DNA of 64,000 bases from Roseobacter weihaiensis (lineage in GTDB: Bacteria > Pseudomonadota > Alphaproteobacteria > Rhodobacterales > Rhodobacteraceae): assembly GCF_020622345.1 (NCBI RefSeq), contig NZ_JACNMO010000002.1:186001-250000 (forward strand), in the 5' to 3' direction. Positions within the stretch are counted from its first letter, which is position 1, and each line of letters begins with the position of its first letter. The position numbers and the translations under genes are program-made. The notes under the pieces are model-generated. The model searched no databases, had not been told where the DNA came from, and saw only the letters and a list, made by a program, of their open reading frames with translations. Shown piece after piece: positions 7,343-59,966 of the stretch.

Positions 7343-8133
7343 TGCTGGCGCTTGTCACCGGGCGCGGCGGCTTGCCGGCGCGGGTTGCAGCGGCGCAGGC
7401 GGCCCCGCCGCTGGTCTGCGTGTTGGAGGGGTTTGCCCCCGATGGCCTTGCGGCGGATATCACGTTCCGCCTCGAGCATCTGGGATCGTTCTTGCAGCAC
7501 CTCAAGGACCGGCAGGTCACCGAAGTTTGCTTTTGCGGCGCCATAGAGCGCCCCCCCTTTGATCCCACCGCACTGGATGCGGCAACAATGCCGCTGGTGC
7601 CTGTGATGATGCAGGCGATGGGGGCGGGGGACGACGGCGCCTTGCGGGCGGTCATGACATTGTTCGAAGCGCAGGGCTTTGTGATCCGCGCCGCCCATGA
7701 ACTGGCCCCCGAACTCCTGGCGCCGGAGGGCGTGCTGACAGCCGCGCAGCCGGACGCGCAGATGCAGGCCGATGTGGCCCGCGCCGACCAGGTGCTGGCG
7801 GCTCTGGCGCCTCTCGACGTGGGGCAGGGCTGCGTTGTCGGGGCGGGTCAGGTCTGGGGTATCGAGACCTTGGGGGGGACGGACCATATGTTGGCGACCC
7901 TGCCCGCGGCGGTGAAGGACGCGCGGGCGCTGCTGGTGAAACAGCCCAAATCCGGGCAGGACCTGCGCGCGGATATGCCCACCATCGGGCCCCGTACGGT
8001 GGAGGCCGTGGCAGCGGTTGGGCTTGCGGGGCTTGTGGTTCGGGCCGGTCAGGTGATTTTGCTGGCGCCCGAAGAGACCCTGGAGCGCGCGGATGAGGCG
8101 GGCCTTGTGCTCTGGTCGCGTGCGCCGGTCTGA
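7342..8133 (+). CDS. lpxI: UDP-2,3-diacylglucosamine pyrophosphatase LpxI
   Basis: LpxI splits UDP-2,3-diacyl-GlcN to lipid X and UMP, the step done by LpxH in enterobacteria. The product has 263 residues, the usual LpxI/DUF1009 length. It opens with a short alpha/beta N-terminal domain (LALVTGRGGLPARVAAAQ) and has the family signatures RQVTEVCFCGAIERPPF and GAGDDGALR. Later regions include GQGCVVGAGQVWGIETLGGT and a lysine-rich KQPKSGQDLRADMPTIGP. Placement between lpxA and lpxB, overlapping both by one base, is the typical alphaproteobacterial arrangement and is strong support. Confidence 0.93.
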   Translation: MLALVTGRGGLPARVAAAQAAPPLVCVLEGFAPDGLAADITFRLEHLGSFLQHLKDRQVTEVCFCGAIERPPFDPTALDAATMPLVPVMMQAMGAGDDGALRAVMTLFEAQGFVIRAAHELAPELLAPEGVLTAAQPDAQMQADVARADQVLAALAPLDVGQGCVVGAGQVWGIETLGGTDHMLATLPAAVKDARALLVKQPKSGQDLRADMPTIGPRTVEAVAAVGLAGLVVRAGQVILLAPEETLERADEAGLVLWSRAPV

Positions 8134-9284
8134 TGCGGGTTTTTATCATCGCGGGCGAGCCTTCGGGCGATAAGCTGGGGGGCGCTCTGATGGCTGGGCT
8201 CAAGACCTTGACCCCGGACATTCAGTTTGACGGGGTTGGCGGGGCGCAAATGCAGGCCCAGGGTCTCAAGAGCCGCTTTCCGATGGCGGAATTGAGCGTG
8301 ATGGGCCTTGCCGAGATCCTGCCCAAGTACCGCGCATTGAAGGCGCGGATCCATCAGACGGCGGCGGCGGTGATTGAAACCGGACCGGATGTGCTCATCA
8401 CCATTGATTCGCCGGATTTTTCGTTTCGGGTCGCGCGCCAGGTGAAGGCCGCAAGCCAGGTGCGCACCGTGCACTACGTGGCCCCCACCGTCTGGGCGTG
8501 GCGGCCGGGTCGCGCTGCCAAGATCGCCCGGTACATCGATCATTTGCTGGCGCTCTTTCCGTTTGAGCCGCCGCTTTTTACCGCGCATGGGATGGCCTGC
8601 GATTTCGTCGGGCATCCGGTTGTGGCCGAGCCTTTGGCCAGTGCGGCGGAGGCCGCGGCGTTTCGGGCCGCGCATGATTTGGAGGGCAAGCCGGTGATGC
8701 TTGTGCTGCCCGGCTCCCGGCAGGGCGAGGTCGCGCGGCTCAAGGAGATTTTCGGGGCCGCCATCGCGCCGGTCCGCGCCCGGCATCCTGATCTGCGGGT
8801 GGTTGTGCCGGCCGCAGCCCCGGTGGCAGAAGCGGTGCAGGCGGCCGTGGTGGATTGGCCGGTGACGCCCCTTGTTCTTGATCCGCGGGAGCAGAGCCTG
8901 GAGGCTGCCGCGGCCCGCAAACGCGCGGCTTTTCGGACTGCGGATGTCGCACTTGCGGCCTCGGGGACGGTGTCGCTGGAGTTGGCCGCGGCCCGGACGC
9001 CGATGGTGATCGCCTACCGTATGCATTGGCTGACCTACCGCGTGATCCGCGCCATGGCGCTGGTCGACACGGTCACACTGGTCAATCTGGTGTCGGAAAC
9101 CCGTGTTGTACCGGAGTTTCTGGGGCCGGCCTGTGTGCCTGCCGCGATTGGGTCTGCGCTGATCGAGGTGATGGATCAGCCCCAGGCACAGGTTGCGGCG
9201 ATGGAGACAACGATGACGCGGCTTGGGGCCGGGCAAGAGGCGCCGGGGTTGCGCGCCGCCCGCGCCGTGATGGCCGGACTGTAG
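8133..9284 (+). CDS. lpxB: Lipid-A-disaccharide synthase LpxB
   Basis: LpxB is a GT-B fold peripheral membrane glycosyltransferase (family GT19) that joins lipid X to UDP-2,3-diacyl-GlcN. At 383 residues it has the N-terminal GEPSGDKLGGALM motif, the VHYVAPTVWAWRPGRAAKI segment near residue 115, and the nucleotide-binding LPGSRQGEVARL near 195. A C-terminal ASGTVSLELAAARTPMVIAY motif completes it. It overlaps lpxI by one base and is the last gene of the run; a GC-rich hairpin follows 43 bases downstream. Confidence 0.96.
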   Translation: MRVFIIAGEPSGDKLGGALMAGLKTLTPDIQFDGVGGAQMQAQGLKSRFPMAELSVMGLAEILPKYRALKARIHQTAAAVIETGPDVLITIDSPDFSFRVARQVKAASQVRTVHYVAPTVWAWRPGRAAKIARYIDHLLALFPFEPPLFTAHGMACDFVGHPVVAEPLASAAEAAAFRAAHDLEGKPVMLVLPGSRQGEVARLKEIFGAAIAPVRARHPDLRVVVPAAAPVAEAVQAAVVDWPVTPLVLDPREQSLEAAAARKRAAFRTADVALAASGTVSLELAAARTPMVIAYRMHWLTYRVIRAMALVDTVTLVNLVSETRVVPEFLGPACVPAAIGSALIEVMDQPQAQVAAMETTMTRLGAGQEAPGLRAARAVMAGL

Positions 9285-11745: not shown

Positions 11746-16058
<4,313 letters not shown>

Positions 16059-16074
16059 CATTTTGTTCGCAGAT

Positions 16075-16089
16075 GTTCTTAAAAAGTTC
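16075..16089 (+). promoter_or_regulatory. LexA/SOS box, GTTC-N7-GTTC
   Basis: The bases 16075-16089 match the alphaproteobacterial LexA operator (GTTC, seven bases, GTTC) exactly. Another GTTC lies at 16065-16068. The box is 55 bases before the ATG of the small membrane peptide at 16145 and 19 bases before an alternative ATG at 16109. That is a normal operator position. No LexA gene is in the window. Confidence 0.6.
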
Positions 16090-16144
16090 TTTACAGAAGG
16101 TGAATTAAATGAGAACAAAGAGGCAACAAATATGGGAGACCCCG

Positions 16145-16273
16145 ATGACACTGCTCTTGCAAATCAAAATGATCGCGACACGGTCGCACGACACTTTGGT
16201 GCAGGACGCCCTTGGGGCATCTGCTTTAGTTGTCATGCTTGTTGTCGGGCTGCATCTGCCATCATTTATCTGA
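16145..16273 (+). CDS. Small membrane protein behind a LexA box, 42 residues
   Basis: I do not recognise a named family. I chose the ATG at 16145 because GGGAG lies six bases before it. An upstream ATG at 16109 with a weaker AAGG would give 54 residues by adding a polar leader. The product starts with a polar, slightly basic segment (LQIKMIATRSHDTLVQDA) and ends with one hydrophobic helix (LGASALVVMLVVGLHL), the design of a small inner-membrane peptide. It is preceded by a perfect LexA-type box and followed by a structured, terminated 3' region. Caulobacter SidA shows that short SOS-induced membrane peptides can block division; that parallel is inference. Confidence 0.55.
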   Translation: MTLLLQIKMIATRSHDTLVQDALGASALVVMLVVGLHLPSFI

Positions 16274-16284
16274 TTTCTGCCTGC

Positions 16285-16441
16285 GCTCTCATGCCGGTAT
16301 CGCCGCTGCACCCTCCCCAATTCGGTGCCTGGAGATGACCACTGCCTGTCTTGACCTCCGATAGAGGCGATTTGACCGGAACCCCACATGAGCGACGCAT
16401 CAACTGCGCCGCGGTCTAGCTTTAGTCCGCGGCGTTTTTTT
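16285..16441 (+). ncRNA. Candidate structured small RNA or 3' UTR
   Basis: Between the small peptide gene and the terminator the DNA can fold into a closed structure. ATCGCC (16299-16304) pairs with GGCGAT (16366-16371), extended by CCGG (16294-16297) with CCGG (16376-16379). Inside lies a hairpin GCACC/GGTGC (16308-16312 and 16324-16328) whose loop has CTCCCC, and a second CCTCC lies near 16355-16359. Exposed C-rich, anti-Shine-Dalgarno-like loops are a known trait of several alphaproteobacterial sRNAs. A strong intrinsic terminator closes it. It could be an independent sRNA or the 3' UTR of the peptide gene; I cannot assign an Rfam family. Confidence 0.4.
16407..16441 (+). terminator. Strong intrinsic terminator
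   Basis: A perfect 8-bp stem (CGCCGCGG at 16407-16414, CCGCGGCG at 16427-16434) with a 12-base loop is followed by seven T residues at 16435-16441. It ends forward transcription from the LexA-boxed unit. Its T-run touches the stop codon of the reverse-strand pseudogene. Confidence 0.88.
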
Positions 16442-17835
16442 AGTCAAAGCTGTAGGCGAGTCGCAATCCACCCCAGTGCCGCCCCTGAACGGCAATGGGG
16501 GCAGAGAGATCTTTCATCATCTTGAAGGCGTCTCCGCCCATGTCCCGGCGATACACCTGTAACAGGAACGGTTCGGTGTTGCGCCCGGCCTTGAGCCCCA
16601 CAGGGTCATCGAAAATGGGCCGATTTCGGCAGTTTGCCGTATTCCAGACCGGGTCATCCGAGGGCGGGTGCGAAAACTTCTTGTTATGCGTCGGCAAATA
16701 TCCATTCAGATCTACCGCGGCACAGAACAGGCCCCTTGGGTTAATGCCCAGGGCAGGTTCCTGAATAGGCGGCATGATATCGTCCATCAGCCGGGTGGAT
16801 TCGGTGATATATTGTTCGGGATCGGTGTTTGGGATTGGTCTGTAGGTACAATCAAAGAGCCGCGACAGGGACATGCGCCCCTTCTGAAGCGCCTGTTCCA
16901 TGCCGTCCGACACTTGCTGGGCCGGGCTGGGCAGCTCGAAGGAAGGACGCATCAGTGGAGCTCTCTCCCAGAAGGGCGGTGGATTGAACAATCGTCTCGG
17001 AGGTGTCGATCAGGTTCAGGATGCGCTCATGGGTTCGTTCAATGCCGGAAGACGTGCCTGTTATCGCATTCTCAATCTCTGACAGTGCGGGGGCAAAATC
17101 AGACATTTTGGTTTCCACCCGTTTAGTCTGTTCGGCAATGCGCTGCGCCTGCTTGTTGGCGGAGGTGATCGACCCTTTGATCCGTCCCAGAGCGGTATCC
17201 GTGCCGCCCGTGTTCTCCAGCACGTCAGAGGCCTGCTCTACCACGCCGGTGGCTTCCTTGCCCAACACCGAAATCCAATCGGTAAGCGTTTCGATGTTGT
17301 TCGAAATCCCAACGGCTGCATCGTGGGTCTGGCAGGACAACTTATTGATGGCCTCGGCCACAACCGCAAATCAGCGCCCGGCGTCGTCTGCGCGCGCGGC
17401 TTCGATCTTGGCGTTGATTGCCAGGGTCTTCACCTGCGTCGCGATGCTCGCAATCTGCTGGTTGTGGTTTTTTACCGCAACCAGCGTGTCGCCCACGGTT
17501 TCGGTCCGCGAGGAGATATCTTGCACCCATTGCGCCACGACGCGGGTTTTTTCGCTTGTGGTACGCACCAGTTCGGCTGAAGATTCCACATCTTTTACGG
17601 TGGCACCGGCATCTGCGGCCATGGATTGTACAGCGTGGCGCACATCGGCATTTTCAGTCGTGACATCGAACGCGCGCGTCTTGAGCACATTCAACCCGCC
17701 GGTTTGCGCCTTTGCATGTGGCTCAACCAGATCGATAAATCCGGCGATATCAACGATTTCATAGCCAAGTGTTGCCGCCGCAGCGGTCGGGCGACCAATA
17801 TGCTTTGTGACGGAAGGGCGTTCTGCATGCGACAT
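16440..17835 (-). pseudogene. Soluble methyl-accepting chemotaxis protein, broken by a stop and a frameshift
   Basis: The joined frames encode a cytosolic chemoreceptor of about 464 residues. A helical N-terminus leads to the signalling hairpin (IASIATQVKTLAINAKIEAARA, then FAVVAEAINKLS). A C-terminal sensory-type domain follows, with YRPIPNTDPEQ, DLNGYLPTHNKKFS, NTANCRNRPIF and YRRDMGG. Two lesions interrupt it. A TGA at 17371-17373 replaces the Gly of the invariant AGRGFAVVAE motif. A tandem GGAA duplication at 16938-16946 shifts the frame by four bases. Both flanks of each lesion stay close to the family, so inactivation looks recent. Total length and the ATG at 17835 match intact relatives. 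Confidence 0.85.
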
Positions 17836-58085: not shown

Positions 58086-59966
58086 TTACTCCGCAGCGAT
58101 TGGTTGAGACGGTGAGGGTGTCATGGCGAACCGCCGGCGCTCAGCCTGGGCGTGGCATATGATGTCTTGTGGGGTCAGTTGCTCGGGCGTGCTGAGCTGT
58201 CGGGCTGACCAGCTTTTTGCGTTCAGGTTCACACTGCCGAGTGCGGACAGGGGTATGGCAAGAAACAGGCTTGCCGCAATCGGCGAAAGCCATGGTGTCA
58301 CGAGCCCCAGCAGAATCCCCGCGACCAACAACGTGCCGATAAGTGTTTCAAAGAAGTGAAACTTTGCCATTACGGCAAGGGAGTATGTCCCGCCGTGCCG
58401 TTGTTGCGGTGACCAGGTCTCACTGAACCCCACGGCCCTGCGGGCCACCGAGATCGATTGCTGCACCATCAGGATCGGGGCATAGGCGATTGACAGCAGA
58501 ATTTCCGTCACCACCGAGACGATGAACTGTGGTGTGCCGCCCACGTCCTGCATCCGAATGCCCGTGCGATGCGCGATCGCAGCCCCCATGAGTTTGGGCG
58601 CCAAGAGCATGGCGTACACAAACCCAAGGATGACCAGCCCATTCCCGGTGTTGGCATCCGGCCAGCTGACCTGCGGGTCAAACCCGCTGAAATAGCGCAC
58701 TGCATTGGTTTCTGTGCCGTCACCAAACAGCGCCCAGACAAGCAAAAGCGCAAGCCAGGCGGGTGAGACAAGATAGCTCATCACGCCGCAGAGCAGATGG
58801 AACCGTGAGGCCGCGTGAAAACCGCGTGTTCCAAGCAGCCGCAGATGTTGCAGGTTGCCTTGGCACCAGCGCCGGTCACGCAGGACAAAGTCGATCAACG
58901 TCGCGGGGGCCTCTTCATAGCTGCCCTCGATGTGTGGCAGGAAGTGGACCGACCACCCTGCACGCCGGAGCAGGGCGGCCTCGACAAAGTCATGTGACAG
59001 GATGAGCTGTGCGGCACCGCGCCGGGCCTTCAGCTTTGGCAGGCCGGCACAGGTGGCAAAGGCGGCGGTCCGGATGATGGCGTTGTGCCCCCAATAGTTG
59101 CCTTCCCGGTCTGTCCATCTTGCCAGCCCTTCGGCCGGGGCTGCGCCGTGAATGCGCGTTGCGAATTGCAGCATCCGGCCAAAAACCGTTTGCGCCCCGA
59201 TGAGTTTTGGAAACGACTGGACCAGCCCAGCCCCCGGCGACCGGGCCAGCGCATCGGTCAGCGCAACAATTGCAGAACCGCTCATAAGGCTGTCGGCGTC
59301 CAGAACCAGCATTGCGGGATAGGCTCCGCCGTAGCGTTCGATCCACTCGTTCAGATTGCCCACCTTGCAGTCAATATTTTCGGGCCTGCGGCGATAATAG
59401 ACCTTGCCGGGAAAGGAGGCCCGGAGGGTCTGGAACGCCAGCAGTTCCTGTTCGGCCGTGCGGGCGTCGCGCGTGTCGGAAAGCATGAAGAGCGTGAAAC
59501 TATGCGCTGTTTCTTCATTTTGCACCGCGGCCAACATCGCGGCGGCGTTGCCGAAGACATCGGATGTGACCTCGTTGTAGATCGGCATCAAAAGGGCCAC
59601 GTCGAGCGGTTTGACGGGACCCTTCTCCATTTCGCCGCAGGGCCGGGGGCGCAGCAATGTCACGACACCCACGAGTGCCGTGCTGACAGAGAGCGATATC
59701 CAGAAAAATGTAAAGGCGATCAACCCGACCACGACACCTTCAAACCAGGAAAACCCGTTCATGGCGAACCAGCCGGTAAAGGCGGCCAGCAGCCCCAAGG
59801 TCGCGATCATCGCCGGCAGAAAGACCACAACGCGCCACATGGGGGTCAGGGAGTGTGACCGTGTTGGCGGAGCGGTGGGATCCCTGAACGGCCGGTCCAG
59901 ATTCTGGATCGGTCGCAGCAGGGGTTTCGGTGCGGGCATTTGGCCCGCGTTTTGCAAAGGGGTCAT
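58086..59966 (-). CDS. opgH: Glucans biosynthesis glucosyltransferase OpgH
   Basis: OpgH builds the backbone of osmoregulated periplasmic glucan from UDP-glucose at the inner membrane. The 626-residue protein has two N-terminal helices, then a GT2 domain: LMPIYNEVTSDVFGNAAAML, the DADS motif in VLDADSLMSGS, and the C-terminal RDRRWCQGN of processive synthases. Further transmembrane helices follow. I chose the ATG at 59966, which overlaps the opgG stop as ATGA; earlier ATGs at 59987 and 59975 are possible. It is coupled to opgG. Confidence 0.9.
   Translation of the reverse strand: MTPLQNAGQMPAPKPLLRPIQNLDRPFRDPTAPPTRSHSLTPMWRVVVFLPAMIATLGLLAAFTGWFAMNGFSWFEGVVVGLIAFTFFWISLSVSTALVGVVTLLRPRPCGEMEKGPVKPLDVALLMPIYNEVTSDVFGNAAAMLAAVQNEETAHSFTLFMLSDTRDARTAEQELLAFQTLRASFPGKVYYRRRPENIDCKVGNLNEWIERYGGAYPAMLVLDADSLMSGSAIVALTDALARSPGAGLVQSFPKLIGAQTVFGRMLQFATRIHGAAPAEGLARWTDREGNYWGHNAIIRTAAFATCAGLPKLKARRGAAQLILSHDFVEAALLRRAGWSVHFLPHIEGSYEEAPATLIDFVLRDRRWCQGNLQHLRLLGTRGFHAASRFHLLCGVMSYLVSPAWLALLLVWALFGDGTETNAVRYFSGFDPQVSWPDANTGNGLVILGFVYAMLLAPKLMGAAIAHRTGIRMQDVGGTPQFIVSVVTEILLSIAYAPILMVQQSISVARRAVGFSETWSPQQRHGGTYSLAVMAKFHFFETLIGTLLVAGILLGLVTPWLSPIAASLFLAIPLSALGSVNLNAKSWSARQLSTPEQLTPQDIICHAQAERRRFAMTPSPSQPIAAE

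Follow-up and report, generated by a model that had tools for sequence, protein, structure and literature searches.

In a 64,000-nt stretch of the Roseobacter weihaiensis genome (the whole stretch analysed, hereafter the window; genus, family and class refer below to those of this source genome, i.e. Roseobacter, Rhodobacteraceae and Alphaproteobacteria) we found, downstream of recG, a small unit that combines a LexA-type operator, the gene of a 42-residue predicted membrane peptide and a structured RNA in its 3' untranslated region (3'UTR). We propose that the unit is expressed as a LexA-repressed, bifunctional SOS transcript, whose membrane peptide and RNA, the latter acting on mraZ, most likely form a brake on cell division; we put this reading at a little short of an even chance. 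Within it, the operator, the coding of the peptide, the transcript end, the RNA structure and the family-wide conservation are well supported by sequence, and LexA control, induction by damage, the release of the RNA, the topology and target of the peptide and the resulting division pause we infer.

The published precedent for the peptide is SidA of Caulobacter crescentus, which has 29 residues, is SOS-induced, stops division and acts on FtsW (PMC4211646, PMC12700426; this and the other published systems are described here from excerpts of the papers cited). Upon DNA damage, cleavage of LexA would let a transcript of ~320 nt appear. Its first product would be a peptide of 39–42 residues with one membrane helix and a probably cytoplasmic N-terminus, which most likely restrains a membrane protein of the divisome, as SidA does. 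Its second product would be the 3'UTR RNA with several CUGYCY repeats exposed in loops; whole or cut free, this RNA would most likely pair with mraZ at its ribosome site and GUG start. A division brake is the most economical reading, because SidA-type and DinR-type parts (see below) seem to be joined here and SulA was found in 0 of 100 family genomes (the E. coli positive control was matched). With no SulA found there, a unit that is conserved at a single locus in the majority of the sampled family genomes is a direct candidate for the means by which members of this mainly marine family pause division after DNA damage. If the RNA part acts as proposed, a single transcript would tie the membrane peptide to control of the division cluster by RNA, division would be paused in a new manner, and the RNA would represent a family without an above-threshold match in Rfam 15; the peptide and RNA halves are separable by simple mutants. 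In its most far-reaching form the unit would be a two-level, family-wide checkpoint, in which the peptide blocks the divisome and an RNA of a new family shuts down the dcw cluster via the mraZ start, both RNAs having coevolved; this form we regard as unlikely.

A LexA-type operator and a conserved peptide gene

The original prediction, made from the window sequence, had placed a perfect GTTC-N7-GTTC box 55 bases before the ATG of a 42-residue single-helix peptide with a GGGAG ribosome site. All of these elements were recovered; it had overlooked a second site resembling an operator, and also the structured RNA of the 3'UTR. The features of the operator and coding part are as follows.

13968–16058, plus strand: recG, open reading frame identified by eye from its translation; the conserved upstream neighbour
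16065–16068, plus strand: extra GTTC half-site, six bases 5' of the main box; exact in 24/30 loci
16075–16089, plus strand: LexA box GTTC-N7-GTTC, GTTCTTAAAAAGTTC; perfect in 30/30 homologous loci
16090–16095, plus strand: TTTACA, likely -35 element; TTTAC at this place in 29/30 loci, TTTACA in 25/30
16109–16116, plus strand: ATGAGAAC, likely -10 element; ATGAGAACAAA conserved
16113–16127, minus strand: second LexA-like site GAAC-N7-CAAC, imperfect and inverted, overlapping the likely -10 element (30 loci compared)
16134–16138, plus strand: ribosome site GGGAG, six bases before the ATG; GGAG precedes the start in 25/30 loci
16145–16273, plus strand: gene of the 42-residue peptide with one predicted membrane helix; read from the ATG at 16145 (55 bases beyond the box) to the TGA at 16271–16273

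On its own the box is weak evidence, because 1.66 such boxes are expected per window (one is found, and at least one occurs in 81 of 100 shuffles) and there is no genome-wide excess (127 matches compared to 170 for the reversed control). Its conservation is far more telling. A peptide search of 59 genomes gave 30 matches, comprising 19/19 genus members (source included) and 11 of 16 genomes from the family's other genera, with none in 24 genomes from the rest of the class. All 30 loci, recruited by the peptide alone (the source and 29 relatives), carry the perfect box upstream. Indeed, the whole region forms an array of near-fixed spacing, GTTC-N6-GTTC-N7-GTTC-TTTAC, then ATGAGAACAAA and GAAC-N7-CAAC: the GAAC of the second site is present in 30/30 loci, at the same spacing (23 bases after the box) in 29, and its CAAC half in 26/30. 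The two LexA-like operators suggest tight repression, as judged from their arrangement, and ATGAGAAC is a likely -10 element on the strength of an alphaproteobacterial-type consensus. The source genome's own lexA and recA are also preceded by perfect boxes of the same type; the recA box (GTTCTCATTACGTTC, contig C24, 350155–350169) is on the opposite strand to that gene, and another AGAACA is close by. A GTTC-N7-GTTC motif has been published as the Caulobacter LexA box (PMC12700426). With a box of this type conserved at the promoter in 30/30 loci, the peptide gene is a candidate member of the alphaproteobacterial LexA regulon, with putative LexA control and damage induction.

The peptide itself (MTLLLQIKMIATRSHDTLVQDALGASALVVMLVVGLHLPSFI) is under purifying selection. 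Among the 19 genus members the pooled ratio of nonsynonymous to synonymous polymorphism (pN/pS) is 0.37 in frame, with pN<pS in 170 of 171 pairs; the two alternative frames have ratios of 1.02 and 2.23, and the antisense register has 0.82. One hydrophobic segment occurs in 30/30 peptides (best 19-residue mean Kyte-Doolittle value 1.89–2.46) and probably forms a single membrane helix. At least one lysine or arginine precedes it in every peptide; as acidic residues are found there too, an N-terminus inside the cytoplasm is no more than likely. Lengths range from 39 to 42 residues, and D21, G24 and L36 are invariant in the profile built from the 30 peptides (A1). A longer in-frame start at 16109, which would give 54 residues, was rejected: it would lie within the likely promoter sequence in part, and just 11/30 loci have an open frame from there. 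Two NCBIfam hits were recorded besides: NF047864 for the window peptide (E-value 0.062), taken as chance, and NF009694 (phosphoglycolate phosphatase) for one of the 30 members of A1 (E-value 0.0012), which is unexplained and probably chance as well.

Profile A1 matches 346 of 394 family genomes (345 of 393 genera). Among 385 genomes of the class it gave six matches, five of them in the same family (source included) and none convincing elsewhere; the sixth is short, lies inside a 290-residue frame and was judged to be chance-like. Scanning named genomes for the operator-promoter pattern, with no peptide information used, recovered at least 116 loci. In all 116 of them the operator is preceded by a RecG match, whose end is 9–545 bases (median 31) away, and the peptide follows the operator in 114; the two loci without it (L153 and L204) stop 77 and 106 bases after the operator start. 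The 80 loci listed belong to genera of the Rhodobacterales (Ruegeria, Roseovarius, Sulfitobacter, Celeribacter, Rhodovulum, Paracoccus and others) or to unnamed Alphaproteobacteria. In the Paracoccus saliphilus locus (L130) the peptide is shorter and the 3'UTR element much reduced, possibly a minimal form. Conservation of the reading frame in related genomes, one of the points on which the original prediction was to be judged, is thus found in most of the family genomes searched. What stands of its proposal of an SOS division inhibitor is a conserved coding gene with a LexA-type operator and one hydrophobic segment; the inhibitor role itself is consistent with the family-wide occurrence and with the finding of no SulA in 100 family genomes.

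A structured RNA in the 3' untranslated region

The region between the stop codon and the transcript end has the following elements.

16274–16407, plus strand: structured 3'UTR RNA element; covariance model R1, 79.7 bits, E-value 1e-16 (this sequence is among the 19 on which R1 was trained)
16277–16283, plus strand: leader CUGCCUG, largely single-stranded in the predicted fold; 78 of 92 non-redundant UTRs have CTGCCTG at some position of their trimmed sequence
16283–16297, plus strand: closing stem, 5' side; covarying pairs, alignment-free test
16308–16328, plus strand: hairpin H1 with a C-rich loop, from the predicted fold
16340–16353, plus strand: H2 loop region CACUGCCUGUCUUG, the proposed site of pairing with the mraZ start, from fold and pairing analysis
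16376–16398, plus strand: closing stem, 3' side, from fold and covariation
16407–16441, plus strand: intrinsic terminator (GC stem and T run), the probable transcript end

An intrinsic terminator follows the stop codon at a distance of 109–199 nt in 30/30 loci, so the transcript is probably ~320 nt long, short and monocistronic. For the 19 genus members, RNAalifold on a plain MAFFT alignment gave 33 pairs, 15 of them with two-sided changes in at least one sequence, and the single-sequence folds share a common plan: the front UUUCUGCCUG, a long stem that closes the element, two hairpins (H1 and H2), joined in most of them by a third (H3), and C-rich or CUGCC-containing loops.

Beyond the genus we used the 3'UTRs of 80 of the at least 116 operator loci. 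The peptide was present in 79 of these, and eight gave no 3'UTR (seven had no recognised terminator or were cut by the locus end, one had no stop); the resulting 71 named UTRs and the 30 above make 101, of which 92 remained after removal of near-duplicates and 81 after exclusion of those trimmed to <100 nt. The CTGYCY motif occurs 3.05 times per 3'UTR in the set of 92, compared to 0.47 times in shuffles. Clusters of at least three CTGYCY in the 80 loci (up to 8 kb each) were found 59 times in the 3'UTR zone and 24 times elsewhere in 1264 kb, counting both strands, and about three of those 24 also lie at the element. In the set of 81 the median fold z-score is -2.57 (74% below -2), CTGYCY is unpaired with a mean probability of 0.76 (0.44 for the RNA overall), and, in a test independent of any alignment, at least seven closing pairs are predicted in 95% of the UTRs (94% of the 65 from outside the genus) but in 44% of shuffles.

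The covariance model R1 was built from the 19 genus sequences only. Applied to 88 loci and the window, it gave 57 matches with E-values ≤1 and 36 with E-values <0.001; judged by its coordinates, each of the 36 follows the operator or peptide on the same strand. One of the 36 is a training sequence (that of the window) and two duplicate a sequence already among them; at least four pairs of loci may share one sequence, as L019/L142 and L022/L157 do. A single weak match falls elsewhere (window 59772–59822, E-value 0.36). In the R1-based alignment, which is fitted to its own model and thereby flatters covariation, two-sided changes occur in 38 of 41 pairs, 82.6% of cells pair (59.0% when shuffled) and the covariation is 0.312 compared to 0.103 for shuffles, none of 500 of which reached it, and to 0.041–0.064 for slid controls. 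In the source genome R1 finds the peptide locus and one weak match (E-value 1.18, contig C7, 48953–49088, locus L213). No Rfam 15 family exceeded its gathering threshold for this RNA; the candidate Xoo2 (25.8 bits, threshold 45, at 16365–16439) lies over the terminator. Taken together, the comparison of sequences supports well a conserved structured RNA that is closed by a stem, has covarying hairpins and CUGYCY repeats left unpaired, and ends in a terminator.

We also considered that the 3'UTR folds back to silence the start of its own peptide. Cognate pairs of 3'UTR and ribosome site show no advantage over non-cognate ones (-26.07 and -26.20 kcal/mol), and start accessibility is hardly altered (0.32 with and 0.33 without the 3'UTR); this candidate was rejected, although some 5'-3' pairing is predicted in 70 of 100 transcripts.

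The RNA bears directly on the best-surviving alternative, namely that the peptide alone matters, as a SidA-like SOS division inhibitor whose 3'UTR merely stabilises the mRNA or aids termination. The general anatomy is that of SidA, a 29-residue SOS peptide of the inner membrane (PMC4211646), the constraint is on the coding of the peptide, and no SulA was found in the 100 family genomes searched. The exposed CUGYCY repeats and covarying stems, however, exceed what an mRNA stabiliser needs, unless the stabiliser is one that binds a protein. We allot this explanation a modest share of the probability and think it improbable.

mraZ as a candidate partner of the RNA

The division (dcw) cluster of the family has a long leader that yields the small RNA UpsM (PMC5089854). 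We examined mraZ, the first dcw gene, because UpsM derives from this leader. Among 18 genus members, 12 have GGGAUAAGGCAGUG at the mraZ start (GUG being the start codon) and 16 have AGGCAGUG, whose exact 8-base complement CACUGCCU occurs in the RNA of 14. In the source genome the mraZ start is GGGACAAGACAGUG and the H2 loop region contains CUGUCUUG, the complement of CAAGACAG. One relative (G018) has GGGAC facing GUCCC where most have GGGAU and GUUCC; differences of this type look like matched changes and are few in number.

For a wider comparison, 64 genomes were reduced to 60 (G068 and G111 had no start, G154 and G112 the wrong frame). The motif RGRCAG is found at the mraZ start in 18/18 genomes of the genus and in 27 of 42 other genera, compared to 19 of 345 background starts, all from the source genome. 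Genera with the motif carry 3.81 CTGYCY per RNA and those without it 2.47 (Mann-Whitney p = 0.0009, uncorrected for kinship). Ranked by pairing energy among the 345 starts, the mraZ start of the same genome lies at the median 4.5th percentile over the 60 genomes and falls in the best 5% for 15 of the 18 genomes of the genus and for 19 of the 42 others; its pairing is better than with the reversed RNA in 46 of 60. As a control, the start of the peptide itself lies at the 47th percentile and never in the best 5% (0/27), compared to 1.7% and 20/27 for mraZ in the same genomes. Cognate pairing is better than permuted pairing over all genomes (p = 0.0002). These statistics suggest mraZ as an RNA partner and make it a good lead.

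A number of results weigh against this reading. Some pairing is also seen for the second dcw gene (17th percentile as the median, 5/18 in the best 5%), and the advantage of cognate over permuted pairing has p = 0.04 in the other genera and p = 0.19 within the genus. In the source genome mraZ ranks 13th of 345 with the H2 loop and 38th with the whole RNA, and lies at 9% with the masked RNA; in 24 of the 345 background starts a perfect complement equals that of mraZ in length, and mraZ is outranked by three further called starts of the dcw region retrieved, which look wrong or spurious. RGRCAG is absent from the mraZ start in 15 of the 42 other genera. The idea was formed post hoc, after the RNA had been seen, mraZ is the sole gene examined in many genera besides the two controls, the background consists of 345 script-called starts of one genome, and the statistics carry no correction for relatedness. 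MraZ represses dcw in E. coli, so the direction of an effect on mraZ is uncertain and blocking it could raise the division genes. As to the RNA, besides the flattering alignment, no structure emerged when RNAalifold was applied to the 92 family 3'UTRs as aligned plainly by MAFFT (the alignment is poor and has one empty row), and the family-wide case for structure therefore builds on single folds and the covariance model; this genus model reaches only part of the family, finding just 13 of 61 family genomes at E-values ≤0.01 under stricter filters, each once (12 directly after a known peptide, the thirteenth being G074). As to the peptide, it has no match in Pfam (the SulA domain PF03846 included), PHROGs or PDB, so that a divisome target draws no support from known families or structures.

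Some of these observations would also fit an RNA that acts on many mRNAs or sequesters a protein via CUGYCY, with mraZ as one of several targets or a coincidence. An RNA has about three of the repeats, the complement RGRCAG stands at ~5% of background starts, and 12 of the 345 pair with the H2 loop better than, or about as well as, mraZ. The enrichment at mraZ in 27 of 42 genera and the flat control in 27 of the same genomes speak against it, and we think such a broad role quite improbable.

Two observations concern the mraZ leader itself. In the source genome (contig C17, ~7870–8290, locus L235) it contains a long block common to the relatives and an inverted repeat, GCGGCGGGTTGATC ... GATCAACTCGCCG, probably a UpsM-type terminator. 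In some other genera G-rich GGGACAG-like stretches also occur higher up the leader.

Known systems and neighbouring genes

TisB and DinQ are SOS-induced membrane peptides, and the unit could likewise encode a membrane toxin, silenced by RNA, that lowers membrane energy and growth in SOS cells; an SOS-type single-helix peptide on a structured transcript fits this. Toxin modules are patchily distributed, unlike a gene present family-wide at one locus beside recG, and silencing by fold-back of the 3'UTR on its own start found no support (no search was made for an antisense RNA); we deem a toxin very improbable. That a chance box merely precedes a spurious small reading frame is, despite the 1.66 boxes expected, refuted by the conservation of box, peptide, RNA and place, and its probability is practically nil.

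The reading as a bifunctional division brake thus joins parts that resemble several known systems, compared here by their descriptions. With SidA the peptide shares its alphaproteobacterial SOS type, very small size and single helix, and the GTTC-N7-GTTC box is found in Caulobacter too; it differs in its length of 39–42 residues, its own motif (D21, G24, L36) and its coupling to a structured 3'UTR. DinR of Klebsiella is a LexA-controlled RNA from the 3' end of dinI that blocks the ftsZ start and hinders division (PMC10907235). The proposed logic is the same, i.e. the 3' part of an SOS mRNA would pair with a division gene in its start region, and a structured 3' region ending in an intrinsic terminator is indeed present here, with LexA control and RNA release presumed; the bacteria and the mRNA are different, the proposed target is mraZ, the element has several hairpins with repeats, and both release and pairing are proposals. 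RNA control of the dcw leader is described in the same family for StsR of Rhodobacter sphaeroides, which is controlled by RpoHI/RpoHII, binds UpsM and the dcw leader and affects division (PMC8307010, PMC5089854); the site proposed here, in contrast, is the mraZ start. UdsC of R. sphaeroides is likewise derived from the 3'UTR of a hypothetical gene in this family; going by the excerpts describing it, we judged it to be a different RNA, as it is 67 nt long, depends on RpoHII and targets rpoHII (PMC9779115, PMC8625941).

The SOS-induced division inhibitors YneA (Bacillus subtilis) and SosA (Staphylococcus aureus) are similar in role, but are Gram-positive proteins; we know of no RNA part in either.

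The word recG is absent from the main text of the two UdsC papers, of a Dinoroseobacter LexA study (PMC6473078, supplement excluded) and of a small RNA study of Ruegeria pomeroyi (PMC4809877). No description of this peptide or RNA was found in the open-licence literature, most subscription journals lying outside the search, so that a prior mention is possible.

Upstream of the unit (window 11785–16058), ligA, named by eye, overlaps recG: the ATG of recG is at 13968 and the ligA stop at 13969–13971, which suggests a ligA-recG operon. Downstream, on the minus strand (16440–17835), lie three consecutive open reading frames in differing frames; they resemble fragments of a single protein of methyl-accepting type that may have been frameshifted.
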